Assembly (NCBI RefSeq): GCF_016861975.1
Contig: NZ_BOMB01000010.1
Span: 124,001-188,000 of the forward strand
DNA: 64,000 nt
Direction: 5' to 3'
From: Actinocatenispora rupis
GTDB taxonomy: Bacteria > Actinomycetota > Actinomycetes > Mycobacteriales > Micromonosporaceae
The notes under the pieces are model-generated. The model made no database searches, was not told where the DNA came from, and worked only from the letters and a program-made list of their open reading frames with translations. Made by a program: the position numbers and the translations under genes. Positions 30,793-34,527 of the stretch are shown here, one piece after another; the first letter of the stretch is position 1, and every line of letters begins with the position of its first letter.

Positions 30793-30822
30793 TTGCTTTT
30801 CGGTATAGACCAGTATTAGGAT
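30793..30822 (+). promoter_or_regulatory. Promoter with dre-like operator for amino-sugar operon
   Basis: TTGCTT (-35, 30793-30798), 18 nt, TAGGAT (-10, 30817-30822), then 7 nt to the GTG start: a leaderless transcript. Between the boxes lies TTCGGTATAGACCAGT (30799-30814). Its right half AGACCAGT and overall GGTATAGACC palindrome resemble the dre sites bound by DasR/NagR GntR-family regulators. A GntR/UTRA regulator is the last gene of the operon. Confidence 0.75.
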
Positions 30823-30829
30823 CGGCCGC

Positions 30830-31753
30830 GTGACGGAACGGGTGGACGTGGCGGTCGACGCCGGGCAGACCGGGGTGCGTCTCGCGCTCGCCCGCGGCGG
30901 CCGGCCCGTCGCCCAGGTGTCCGGCCCCGGCCTGCGGTACGGGCACGGCGACGGGCCGGCGCGCGCGGTGCTCGACGCGTTCGGTGCGCTGCGCGCGGGG
31001 CTGCCGCCGGACGGACCGGTCGGGACCGTGTGCGTCGGCCTGACCAGCGTCCTCGGCGCCGACGGGGAGTACGAGTCGCTCGCCGCCGGCCTGCTGGAGC
31101 GCTTCGCCGCCGACCGTGTCGTACTGACCGGCGACGTGGTGACCGCGCACGCGGGTGCGCTCGGCGCCCGGCCGGGGGTGGTGCTGGCGGCGGGCACCGG
31201 CGCGATCGCCCTCGGCGTACGGGCGGACGGGCGGCACCGGCAGGTCGACGGCTGGGGCCACCTGTACGGGGACGCCGGCGGCGGGTTCTGGATCGGCCGG
31301 CACGGCCTGGACGCGGCGATGCGCGGGCACGACGGCCGGGCGCCGGCGGGCGCGTTGAGGGCACGCGCGGCGGCGGTTTTCGGCAACCTCGGCGACCTGG
31401 CCGAGCGGCTGTACCCGGACGGCGACGCGGTGGCGCGGATCGCCGCCTTCGCCCGGGACGTACTGGAGCTGGCGGAGGTGGACGCGGTGGCGGCGGAGAT
31501 CGCGGACCGGGCGGCGGCGGAGCTGGCCGGTACGGTGACGGCGGCGGGTGCGGCGGGCTCGGACGTGTCGTGGACCGGGCGGCTGCTCGGCGACGACGGG
31601 TTGCGGCGCCGGTTCGCGGCGGCGCTGGCGGACCGGGCGCCGACCGCGCGGCTGCGTACGCCCGACGCGGACGGGCTGACGGGTGCGGCATGCCTGGCCG
31701 CGGCCGACGACCTCGCACCGTACGCGGGACTGTGCCGGGTGCGTACGCGATGA
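30830..31753 (+). CDS. BadF/BcrA-type ATPase, N-acetylglucosamine-kinase-like
   Basis: 307 residues of the ASKHA kinase fold: phosphate-1 DAGQTGVRLALA, VGLTSVL, phosphate-2 LAAGTGAIALG, and GWGHLYGDAGGGFWIGRHGLDAAM, the segment shared with N-acetylglucosamine kinases. It probably phosphorylates an amino sugar. The GTG start sits 7 nt after a -10 box, so the message is leaderless. It is the first of four coupled genes ending in a GntR/UTRA regulator, and its stop overlaps the next start (ATGA). The sugar is inferred from family and regulator type. Confidence 0.88.
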   Translation: MTERVDVAVDAGQTGVRLALARGGRPVAQVSGPGLRYGHGDGPARAVLDAFGALRAGLPPDGPVGTVCVGLTSVLGADGEYESLAAGLLERFAADRVVLTGDVVTAHAGALGARPGVVLAAGTGAIALGVRADGRHRQVDGWGHLYGDAGGGFWIGRHGLDAAMRGHDGRAPAGALRARAAAVFGNLGDLAERLYPDGDAVARIAAFARDVLELAEVDAVAAEIADRAAAELAGTVTAAGAAGSDVSWTGRLLGDDGLRRRFAAALADRAPTARLRTPDADGLTGAACLAAADDLAPYAGLCRVRTR

Positions 31754-32994
31754 GGGTGGGCTTCGGTCAGGTGGTGCTGCCGGTGCCGACCGGCACCCCG
31801 ATGGGCGGCTACGCGTTCCGCGACGGCACGTCCGACGGCGTCCTCGACGACCTCCGCGTCACCGCGATCACCTGGTACGACGGGGATCGCCGGGTCGCGC
31901 TCGCGCTCGTCGACGTGGTGTGCGTGAACGCCGACCTGTGCCGGGCGGCGCGCGCCGCGGTACCGGACGTGGACGTGCTGTGGGTGGCGGCGAGCCACAC
32001 GCACGCCGGGCCGGAGACCGGTTGCGTACCGGGGGGTGCGGCGACGCCGGAGCCGTGGCGCGCGGAGCTGACCGCCCGCATCGTCGCCGCCGTCGCGGCG
32101 GCCCGGCGCACCGAACGGGACGCCGACGGCCTCGCGTACGCGGGGCAGCTGCGCGGCGTCGGCTCGGTGCGCAGCCACGTCACCGGCACCCCGGCGGTAC
32201 CGCTGGACGTGGTGGAGGTGGTCGCCGCGGGCCGGCGCGTCGGCGTACTGGCGGTGCTGCCGGTCCATCCGACGGTGCTGCCGGCCGCCAACCTGGGCGT
32301 CAGCGCGGACCTGACCGGCGCCGTACGGCGGGCGCTGGCCGACCGGTTCGGCGCCGGCACGTGGGTGGCGGTGGCGACCGGCGCGGCCGGCGACATCAGT
32401 ACCCGGCATGCCCGGCAGGGCCAGGATCAGCGGGAACTCGCCCGGCTCGGTGGCGTGGCCGCGGACCGGTGCGTCGAGCTGCTGGCCGGTACGGGCCGGC
32501 CGGCGTGGTCCGCGGGCAGCCGCCTGGACACCCGGTCGGCGACGGTACGGCTGGCGCCGAAGCCCCGTACCGACACCGCCGCGGTGCTGGACGGCGCGGC
32601 CGGCGCGCTCGCCGCGGCCCGTACCGGCGGGGACGAGGCGGCGGCCCGGGTCGCGGCCGGGAACCTGGACGGCGCGCGCTTCGCCGCCGAGTACGGGACG
32701 GGTGGCGCGGCGGTCGACGCCGAGGTGGGCGCCTGGCGGATCGGCCGGCTCGCCGTCGCCGCGCTGCCCGGCGAACCCTTCCTCGCCCTGGCCGACCGGG
32801 TACGCGCGGACCGGCCGGCGCCCACCCTGGTACTCGGCTACGCCAACGCGTACCCGGGCTACCTGCCCACGTCCGACGCGTACCGGACGGACCAGTACGA
32901 GGTGCTGGTCTCGGCCGTGGCGGCCGGTGGCGGCGAACGGCTCGCCGACCGCGCCGCCGACCTCATCGCAGATCTCGACGGGAGTGCCCAGTGA
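31750..32994 (+). CDS. Neutral ceramidase-like amidohydrolase, cytoplasmic
   Basis: 414 residues resembling the N-terminal catalytic domain of neutral/alkaline ceramidases: FGQVVLPVPTGTPMGGYAFR at the start, VCVNADLC, the metal-ligand motif ASHTHAGPE, VLPVHPTVLP, and GAAGDIST, the segment carrying the family's nucleophilic Ser. It is much shorter than full ceramidases (~650+) and lacks a signal peptide and the C-terminal Ig-like domain. In this operon an N-deacylase acting on an acylated or acetylated amino sugar is more plausible than ceramide hydrolysis (inference). ATG overlaps the kinase stop; its stop overlaps the SIS start. Confidence 0.8.
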   Translation: MRVGFGQVVLPVPTGTPMGGYAFRDGTSDGVLDDLRVTAITWYDGDRRVALALVDVVCVNADLCRAARAAVPDVDVLWVAASHTHAGPETGCVPGGAATPEPWRAELTARIVAAVAAARRTERDADGLAYAGQLRGVGSVRSHVTGTPAVPLDVVEVVAAGRRVGVLAVLPVHPTVLPAANLGVSADLTGAVRRALADRFGAGTWVAVATGAAGDISTRHARQGQDQRELARLGGVAADRCVELLAGTGRPAWSAGSRLDTRSATVRLAPKPRTDTAAVLDGAAGALAAARTGGDEAAARVAAGNLDGARFAAEYGTGGAAVDAEVGAWRIGRLAVAALPGEPFLALADRVRADRPAPTLVLGYANAYPGYLPTSDAYRTDQYEVLVSAVAAGGGERLADRAADLIADLDGSAQ

Positions 32995-33743
32995 CCGGTC
33001 AGGACGAGTACGCCCAGGTGGCCCGGGAGGCCGTCGACCGTCTCGTGACGACGCAACGCGACGCGATCTCCCGCGCCGGCGCGATCGTCACCGAGGCACT
33101 CCTGGCCGGCGGCGTCATCCAGGCGTACGGGACGGGCCACTCCCGCGCGGTGGCCCTGGAACTCGTCGGCCGCGCGGGCGGCCTGGTCCCGGCGAACCAG
33201 CTCGCCATCCGCGACCTGGTCTACTACGGCGACACGCCCGCCGCCGACATCCTCGACCCGCACCTGGAACGCTCGCCCGAGGTGGCCGACCGGGTCTGGT
33301 CATTGGCCGACATCCGGCCCGCCGACGTGTTCGTCATCGCGTCGAACTCGGGCGGCAACGGCGCGATCGTCGAGATGGCGCGGCTCGCCGGCGAGCGCGG
33401 GCACCGCGTCGTCGCGATCACGTCCGTCGCGCACACCGGCCGGATCACGCCGCGGCACCCGAGCGGGCAGCGGCTCGCCGACCTGGCCGACGTGGTGATC
33501 GACAACGGCGCGCCGTACGGGGACGCGGCCGTACCGCTGCCGGACGGGGACGCGTTCGGGCCGCTGTCCAACCTGACCGGCATCCTCGCCGCGAACCTGC
33601 TCGTCGCCGACGTGATCGGCCGGTACCTCGCGGCCGGCTCCCCGCCGCCGCTGTTCCGTTCCGCGAACACGCCGGGCAACGACGGCCACAACGACGCCCT
33701 GCTCGACCGGTACGGTGCGCGGGTCCGGCTCGGCGACGCCTGA
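32991..33743 (+). CDS. SIS-domain sugar-phosphate-binding protein
   Basis: 250 residues: GGVIQAYGTGHSRAVALELVGRAGG and VFVIASNSGGNGAIVEMARLAGERGHRVVAITS form the sugar isomerase (SIS) fold with a Ser/Thr-rich phosphosugar site. It resembles the UPF0309/MurQ-like group: isomerase, deaminase or etherase acting on a phosphorylated amino sugar. GTG start overlaps the preceding stop (GTGA), so it is coupled to the ceramidase-like gene. Confidence 0.9.
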   Translation: MTGQDEYAQVAREAVDRLVTTQRDAISRAGAIVTEALLAGGVIQAYGTGHSRAVALELVGRAGGLVPANQLAIRDLVYYGDTPAADILDPHLERSPEVADRVWSLADIRPADVFVIASNSGGNGAIVEMARLAGERGHRVVAITSVAHTGRITPRHPSGQRLADLADVVIDNGAPYGDAAVPLPDGDAFGPLSNLTGILAANLLVADVIGRYLAAGSPPPLFRSANTPGNDGHNDALLDRYGARVRLGDA

Positions 33744-33762
33744 CATCCAGGACCGGAGGACC

Positions 33763-34527
33763 ATGGCACGCACCCGACACGACACGTTCCCCGCCGTGGG
33801 GCTTCCGGCGGAGTTCGACGACGGCCGCGCCAAGGGCCCCCAGGTACGCGAGGCGTTGGAGGCGATGGTCGCCGGCCTCGACCCGGGCACGCTGCTGCCG
33901 TCCGAACGGTCCATCGCGGACCGCTTCCGGGTCGCCCGGATGACCGTCCGCAACGAGGTGAACGACCTGGTCGCCCGCGGTCTGGTACGCCGGGTCAAGG
34001 GCGCCGGCACGTTCGTGGCCGAGCCGCGCGTCGCGCACGGCACCACGACCGGGTCGTTCAGCCACGACATGCGCTCGCGCGGGCTGACCCCCGGGTCGCG
34101 GCTCGTCGCCGTCCGGGAGCGCCCCGCCACCGCGCTGCTCGCCGACCGGCTCGGCCTGGCCGAGTCCGACCCCGTCGTCGAACTCCACCGGGTACGTACC
34201 GCGGACGGGGTGCCGATGGCCGTCGAGTACACGCACCTGTCGGGGGTACGGTTCCCGGGGCTGGCCGGGCTCGCCGCCGACGACTGGTCGCTGTACGAGA
34301 CGCTCGCCGAGCGGTGGGGTGTGCGCGTCGCCACCGCCACGCACCGGGTGTCGGCGGTCGCGCTGGACGGCACCGACGCCGGGCTGCTCGGCGTACCGGT
34401 GGGGCTGCCGTCGTTCGCCGTCGAACGCACCGCGCTGGACGCCGCCGGCGGTGTCGTCGAGTGGGGCCGCTCCCGCTACCGCGGCGACCGGTACGACGTG
34501 GTGTTCGCCGTCCAGTCGCCGTCCTGA
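33763..34527 (+). CDS. GntR-family regulator with UTRA domain (HutC/DasR subfamily)
   Basis: 254 residues. Winged helix ~25-95 (LLPSERSIADRFRVARMTVRNEVNDLVARGLVRRVKGAGTFVAEP), then a UTRA ligand domain (~105-250: LAESDPVVELHRVRTADGVPMAVEYTHL, GVPVGLPSFAVERTALDAAG). UTRA proteins of this branch sense phosphorylated amino sugars. RBS CGGAGGA. The dre-like palindrome in the operon promoter is the obvious target, giving substrate-induced autoregulation of the four genes. Confidence 0.93.
   Translation: MARTRHDTFPAVGLPAEFDDGRAKGPQVREALEAMVAGLDPGTLLPSERSIADRFRVARMTVRNEVNDLVARGLVRRVKGAGTFVAEPRVAHGTTTGSFSHDMRSRGLTPGSRLVAVRERPATALLADRLGLAESDPVVELHRVRTADGVPMAVEYTHLSGVRFPGLAGLAADDWSLYETLAERWGVRVATATHRVSAVALDGTDAGLLGVPVGLPSFAVERTALDAAGGVVEWGRSRYRGDRYDVVFAVQSPS

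Follow-up and report, generated by a model that had tools for sequence, protein, structure and literature searches.

A ceramidase-fold hydrolase probably serves amino-sugar breakdown in an accessory operon of Actinocatenispora rupis

The window analysed here is a stretch of 64,000 nucleotides from Actinocatenispora rupis (assembly GCF_016861975.1, contig NZ_BOMB01000010.1, positions 124,001 to 188,000), whose genome is a 7.83 Mb draft in 81 contigs. Positions 30793-34527 of the window hold four open reading frames on the same strand, encoding in order a sugar kinase, a hydrolase with a ceramidase fold (Cer, gene cer), a SIS phosphosugar protein (SIS) and a GntR-type regulator (Table 1). From sequence comparison and structure prediction we propose a probable role for this operon in degrading an N-acylated amino sugar by means of the ceramidase-fold enzyme. 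The reading frames and their family matches confirm the four genes of a first-pass annotation made from the letters alone. It had described all the genes as coupled by stop/start overlaps, and this is true of two junctions, where the kinase TGA and the cer ATG share ATGA (31750-31753) and the cer TGA and the SIS GTG share GTGA (32991-32994), but not of the third, where the SIS stop (33743) and the GntR ATG (33763) are separated by a gap of 19 bp, with GGAGG at 33755-33759. None of the operon's four genes encodes NagA, NagB or a transporter, as the annotation had said; elsewhere the genome has one NagA over the family cut-off and a second match under it.

Table 1. Features of the kinase-cer-SIS-GntR operon, in window coordinates
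Feature	Position	Strand	Basis
Putative promoter, TTGCTT (30793-30798)/18 bp/TAGGAT (30817-30822), ending 7 nt 5' of the GTG start	30793..30822	+	read by eye; weak
Dre-like palindrome TTCGGTATAGACCAGT, candidate GntR operator	30799..30814		10/12 to core TGGTCTAGACCA
BadF/NagK-type sugar kinase, 307 aa	30830..31753	+	PF01869 4.7e-17
Cer, ceramidase-fold hydrolase, 414 aa	31750..32994	+	PF04734 match, predicted structure, conserved residues
SIS_2/NagS-like phosphosugar protein, 250 aa	32991..33743	+	PF13580 3.7e-37; PRK02947 269.6 bits
GntR/UTRA regulator, DasR-like, 254 aa	33763..34527	+	PF07702 1.1e-38; PF00392 7.2e-14; DasR 1.2e-44

Cer matches the neutral ceramidase family PF04734 at 1.6e-6, and its 27.5 bits are below the gathering score of 32.1; of two relatives that were scanned, one fails it (L068, 21.4) and one passes (L075, 36.7). 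Structure prediction bears out the ceramidase fold that had been annotated for this protein. The AlphaFold2 model has a pLDDT of 96.1, and at E ≤ 0.001 Foldseek pairs it with neutral ceramidases exclusively (4 chains), among them Pseudomonas aeruginosa 2zws (1.4e-27, TMq 0.76) and human 4wgk (1.4e-26), at 15-17% identity. A profile of 66 Cer relatives finds the same enzymes (1.2e-36 for 2zws, and 2.3e-30). The underlying alignment holds the window protein and 65 of the 74 full-length Cer proteins from 80 named loci described below, 6 of which yielded no full-length Cer; three fused or overlong and six near-identical Amycolatopsis sequences are omitted. H83, H85, R141, H173, E342, Y371 and Y383 are invariant in all 66 and S217 is kept in 61, these residues align with those of 2zws and 4wgk, and we take the His motifs, Arg, Glu and Tyr to have the zinc-site and catalytic roles.

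Predicted fold and catalytic residues are thus what Cer shares with the neutral ceramidases (P. aeruginosa 2zws/2zxc, human 4wgk, PF04734). It differs from them in scoring below the Pfam gathering threshold, in sitting in sugar operons, in showing no signal peptide on inspection of the sequence, and in having no C-terminal domain, with 414 residues against the 646 of a ceramidase. To call it truncated, as the annotation did, is misleading, since about 385-450 residues is the usual length in its family. It also has R24 where 2zws has Leu and 4wgk has Ser. This arginine (64/66) is typical of the Cer family, as are R219 and R222 (62/66 each), which lie beyond the aligned stretch, and the three may hold a phosphate.

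SIS exceeds the PRK02947 cut-off of 135 bits (Table 1), and its eight NCBIfam matches at E ≤ 0.1 include no MurQ family. The natural comparison is with its closest characterised relative, NagS of Streptomyces coelicolor (SCO4393), which is reported (PMC12680351) to be a GlcNAc-6-phosphate (GlcNAc-6P) dehydratase of Streptomycetaceae, related to MurQ and abolished by loss of H53, R64, E94 or D179 (Table 1 of that paper); the annotation had suggested isomerisation or deamination for the SIS step. Both proteins are of the SIS_2 family, and 83 of 235 aligned residues are identical (35.3%). The four essential residues are kept in 61 of 61 SIS proteins, comprising that of the window and 60 from the named loci that passed a length filter; N228 is kept in 58 and the phosphate serines in 59-60 of them. 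The surroundings differ, the NagS gene lying beside dmdR1 and the window's SIS gene lying with a kinase gene and cer. The kinase is of the BadF/BadG family, and its nearest solved relatives are a NagK-like protein and, after it, a MurNAc/GlcNAc kinase. With the NCBIfam model NagK_SO3507 it scores 42.2 bits, far below the cut-off of 370, which places it in the wider BadF family.

The fourth protein combines GntR and UTRA families and has DasR as its nearest solved relative (Table 1), in agreement with its annotation as a DasR-type regulator. The annotation had also drawn one leaderless promoter with a dre-like palindrome between its -35 and -10 elements. The palindrome is real: when scored with what we take to be the dre core, TGGTCTAGACCA, it was matched by none of 300 mononucleotide shuffles. 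The promoter is weak, agreeing with the consensus at 7 of 12 positions by eye, and a consensus scan called no sigma-70 promoter; leaderless transcription of the operon is at most plausible. A GntR gene is present in 32 of the scanned loci (the window, L047, L048, L085, L113, L120 and 26 with GntR and a binding protein), and 30 of these have a dre-like site scoring at least 9, against 0 of the 12 that lack the gene (L086-L092, L094, L095, L105, L126 and L127), figures for which the cut of 9/12 was picked after the scores were known, the stretches differ in length and many loci are closely related. When each locus was compared with 300 shuffles of its own, values below 0.05 were obtained for 24 of the 32 and for none of the 12. 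These counts omit L084, L111 and L118, which gave no row, and L093, which has a 10/12 site on a contig that ends before any GntR gene.

The exact 13-mer CGGTATAGACCAG occurs once in the window genome, as the operator, and four further sites differ from it by one mismatch; the single exact occurrence argues for local control. Judged by sequence, the DasR-like protein with its dre-like candidate operator looks like a local regulator and not DasR itself: the GntR/UTRA protein and a similar palindrome are common to both, whereas the exact operator 13-mer of the window regulator occurs only once in the genome. Control of this kind is not universal among the relatives, and in L086 an AraC-type regulator precedes the kinase instead of GntR.

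The association of these genes extends well beyond the window. A single-protein scan for Cer gave no match, and an alignment-based one gave 276 relatives, the best 80 of which, as named loci, were analysed. Having been chosen for Cer, these loci measure the neighbours of cer and not the frequency of the operon. Neighbours were counted with home-made profiles, built from single sequences for NagB, the phosphotransferase system (PTS) subunits, ROK, GlmS-like and GlcNAc 2-epimerase proteins, on genes called by a simple caller of our own, and the division into 47 close and 33 distant loci is also ours. SIS was found in 58 of the 80, no more than 2.5 kb from cer in 55 of them; the kinase was found in 48, always within 2.5 kb; NanE was found in 17, PTS EIID in 22, NagA-like genes in 14 and GFO/IDH-like genes in 17. 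Among the close loci, 43 have SIS and 46 the kinase. Of the four without SIS, L093 and L153 are at contig ends, as is L084, which lacks the kinase, and L098 has only a fragment. In a further set of 31 loci, from genomes with a match to Cer, tblastn detects cer in 30 and SIS in 28; the two sets overlap (L063 = L106, L069 = L117) and their counts are kept separate.

Three genomes of the same genus have kinase, cer, SIS and GntR genes in the same order, with the contig of one ending inside the kinase, and their Cer proteins are 58-62% identical to that of the window (nearest named, Actinocatenispora comari, 61%). The cer-SIS pair also occurs in Chloroflexi, Bacillota, Acetothermia, Atribacteria and several archaea (L130, L133, L162). 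In two loci cer runs into SIS in one open frame with no stop (L106:8001-9974 of N. deserti, 658 aa; L115:8001-10001 of Nonomuraea sp. SBT364, 667 aa). The first-pass annotation had made its pathway depend on the three enzymes occurring together, and their linkage is indeed conserved in close homologues. The operon is nevertheless accessory. Of 394 genomes of the class, 17 yielded a Cer relative (E ≤ 1e-20, including the host's own and two distant matches), as did 9 of 296 genomes of the phylum (1e-30, own included), in surveys that scored only 4-6 candidates per genome. The 11 PTS-plus-cer loci of Amycolatopsis and Lentzea, which have no SIS, could be offered as proof that Cer acts alone, an argument weakened by the SIS_2 genes that all 11 genomes carry elsewhere. 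The two of those genes that were inspected fall short of the operon SIS in score (162-166 bits), and nothing else from the profile set lies near them.

What surrounds cer gives clues to the class of substrate. NanE acts on N-acylhexosamine 6-phosphates, and 13 of the 47 close loci have its gene between those for the kinase and Cer; the NanE of L068, the one scanned, is over the NCBIfam cut-off, and in L049 kinase and NanE are fused into one protein of 533 residues. L052 has a GlcNAc 2-epimerase, non-homologous to NanE, with an SSF symporter, and L184 has a homologue of this epimerase. The presence of two kinds of epimerase for a gluco/manno switch points to a sugar of the GlcNAc/ManNAc type. 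Importers beside cer comprise sugar ABC transporters, mannose-type PTS, a dipeptide-type ABC transporter (L075, beside SIS-cer) and the SSF symporter. The binding proteins are sugar-type. One is nearest to the NgcE model at 1.3e-18, where its 67 bits fall far short of the cut-off of 400, and it has chitin-oligosaccharide binders among its solved relatives, though not as the best ones. NanE, the NagK-like kinase and the sugar importers together support the N-acyl amino-sugar context proposed at first, but not the proposed order of deacylation and then phosphorylation. PTS import phosphorylates its sugar, and because NanE and, in other lineages, a PTS sit next to cer, Cer most likely sees a phosphosugar; it is more likely that deacylation follows phosphorylation. 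The known Nan and Nag/Aga pathways (NanK-NanE-NagA-NagB; AgaVWEF-AgaA-AgaS) share with these loci a kinase or mannose-type PTS, NanE, a SIS protein and a GntR regulator. They differ in that the core pair here is the ceramidase-fold hydrolase and the NagS-like SIS, sometimes beside NagA.

The reading we prefer, to which we would give not quite an even chance, is of an accessory operon under local repression that serves the catabolism of an N-acylated 2-amino-hexose, GlcNAc/ManNAc in type, with Cer as its deacylase and SIS as a NagS/MurQ-type enzyme. The GntR protein would repress from the palindrome until a phosphorylated amino sugar releases it. The kinase would make the sugar 6-phosphate, as the PTS of some relatives would on import, and NanE, if present, would connect the pools of ManNAc-6P and GlcNAc-6P. 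The N-acylhexosamine 6-phosphate would next be processed by Cer and SIS together, SIS with NagS/MurQ-type chemistry at C2/C3 and Cer as a cytoplasmic zinc amidase that strips the N-acyl group either from the phosphosugar itself or from what SIS makes of it, although some other amide or a lactone could be its target. In the window genome, the product would feed into a pool handled by genes elsewhere.

A more specific chemistry can be drawn by analogy with NagS, and we hold it to have a rather small chance of being right. SIS would eliminate water or a 3-O-substituent from an N-acylhexosamine 6-phosphate to leave a 2,3-unsaturated enamide, Cer would deacylate this, and ammonia would be lost without NagB to give a 3-deoxy-hexosulose phosphate. 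An enamine that turns to imine is reported for the action of NagA on the NagS product (PMC12680351). The deacylated enamine formed by Cer would in the same manner become an imine and lose ammonia, and the 3-deoxy-hexosulose phosphate would enter 2-keto-3-deoxy-type metabolism, of which the FAA-hydrolase gene of L086 and the DHDPS-family genes of L053 and L126 would be traces.

Several observations weigh against the preferred reading of Cer and SIS as an amino-sugar pair. NagS proteins are delimited by at least 58.7% identity within Streptomycetaceae, and the window SIS has 35.3% and an Actinocatenispora host. Three NagS homologues of 26-36% identity are reported to be inactive or nearly so on GlcNAc-6P (PMC12680351), which counts against exactly this reaction in the operon's SIS or else indicates another substrate. 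The sugar-contacting S91 of NagS is replaced in all SIS proteins compared, by P in 44, a gap in 16 and A in 1 of the 61, with P in the window. No SIS gene was found in the fetched stretch of 18 of the 33 distant loci. Finally, the NagA-like genes detected are in 14 of those 33 loci, and all eight tested (L119, L130, L131, L133, L139, L140, L150, L154) pass the NCBIfam cut-off for NagA; the match in L132 is weak, at 59 bits. L119 brings together PTS, cer, two SIS genes, NagA and a NagB-like gene, and L131 an ABC transporter, cer, a glucosamine-isomerase-family gene, SIS and NagA. In the N. deserti genome (G169), SIS, cer and a NagA-like gene overlap on one strand (L184:2274-10290), the last with 211 bits, just below the cut-off of 225.65, and NagB-like (99.8 bits, under cut-off) and GlcNAc 2-epimerase-like genes lie on the opposite strand. 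In a midpoint-rooted tree of Cer, with over-long rows cut at 470 residues and branch support values left aside, the nearest outgroups of the window clade, L119, L150 and L154, all have NagA, and NagA over the cut-off is present in 23 of 23 searched genomes.

One alternative is a straight substitute for NagA and NagB in which the kinase gives GlcNAc-6P, Cer gives GlcN-6P and SIS deaminates this to fructose-6P. It has the attraction that the four enzymes of the NanE-type loci map one to one on a route from ManNAc to Fru-6P, and the home-made profiles detected neither NagA-like nor NagB-like genes in the stretches fetched for the 47 close loci. None of the 23 genomes has a NagB that exceeds the NCBIfam cut-off, but 13 of them have a weaker match, and NagB at 1e-20 is missing too from four relatives with no match to Cer (G006, G009, G012, G013), so its absence is not tied to the operon; another deaminase may serve in genomes without NagB over the cut-off. 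With NagA in all 23 genomes there is no gap for Cer to fill, and where NagA accompanies Cer and SIS, as in L119, L131 and others, with NagB-like genes in L119, L131 and L184, the two must do more than, or something other than, NagA and NagB. NagS is reported to show no significant binding of GlcN-6P (PMC12680351). A replacement of NagA by Cer was our first lead and was dropped on account of the 14 distant loci and the 23 genomes. Cer and SIS probably do not simply replace NagA and NagB, and we regard the substitute pathway as unlikely.

Muropeptide or MurNAc salvage, with the kinase acting on MurNAc, SIS as a MurQ-like etherase giving GlcNAc-6P and Cer acting on the lactyl-peptide amide or the N-acyl group, would account for the MurNAc/GlcNAc kinase as second-best solved relative of the kinase, for the dipeptide-type importer beside SIS-cer in L075 and for NagA in many distant loci. 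The relationship of NagS to MurQ (PMC12680351) also favours it. We nevertheless consider it improbable, because it leaves NanE (17/80) and the GlcNAc 2-epimerase unexplained. Archaea are not known to have peptidoglycan of this kind, yet three archaeal loci have the cer-SIS pair, though these organisms might feed on peptidoglycan, and mannose-type PTS, such as stand beside cer, are not known for MurNAc. That Cer is some other zinc hydrolase, of a sugar lactone or ester in an oxidative pathway, is suggested by L053, where a distant cer is accompanied by genes for SDR, ILVD/EDD dehydratase and DHDPS-family proteins, the first two with homologues in L054, and by the GFO/IDH-like genes counted above. 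Only 7 of the 47 close loci have such GFO-like genes, however, and Cer keeps the catalytic residues of a ceramidase, which together make this reading quite improbable. A true but cytoplasmic ceramidase among unrelated neighbours would suit the fold match to neutral ceramidases; given the linkage to sugar genes across phyla, an identity of 15-17%, and the want of a C-terminal domain and, by inspection, of a signal peptide, we give it hardly any credence.

A literature search that left most subscription journals uncovered yielded the NagS paper as the one relevant item and nothing that connects ceramidase-type proteins with the catabolism of amino sugars in bacteria. If the preferred amino-sugar reading is right, a fold associated with the hydrolysis of sphingolipids would also serve, and widely, in cytoplasmic sugar catabolism, and a role would be available for many genes now unassigned or misnamed as "ceramidase" and "sugar isomerase domain", the Cer relatives among them. 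NagS-like proteins outside the Streptomycetaceae would gain a partner, and with it a class of substrates that can be tested. A short cytoplasmic ceramidase-like protein should then not be taken as a sign of sphingolipid metabolism.

Other parts of the A. rupis genome hold related genes. It has three SIS_2 genes, and the product of one on contig C21 (L082:8797-12898) is 54% identical to the window SIS; it has neither kinase nor cer nearby and adjoins the genes of an ABC importer, two for permeases and one for a binding protein whose match is weak. A NagA gene stands with weak ROK-like and GlmS-like matches (L174). On contig C7 (L083:3920-11067), a NanE homologue and a GntR gene accompany a gene for a 505-residue protein, directly 5' of which is a dre-like site (11/12), and four further genes that by eye presumably encode a dipeptide-type importer. 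Among the relatives, a gene for a 496-residue protein, SSF symporter-like by eye, follows the NagA-like gene of L184. Ten loci of Streptosporangiaceae type (L086:3654-7060 and like) have FAA-hydrolase and AraC regulator genes before kinase-cer-SIS and a class III aminotransferase gene on the opposite strand, families that were scanned in L086 alone. On an Atribacteria contig (L157:5962-8250), two genes of the URO-D family lie directly 3' of SIS-cer.

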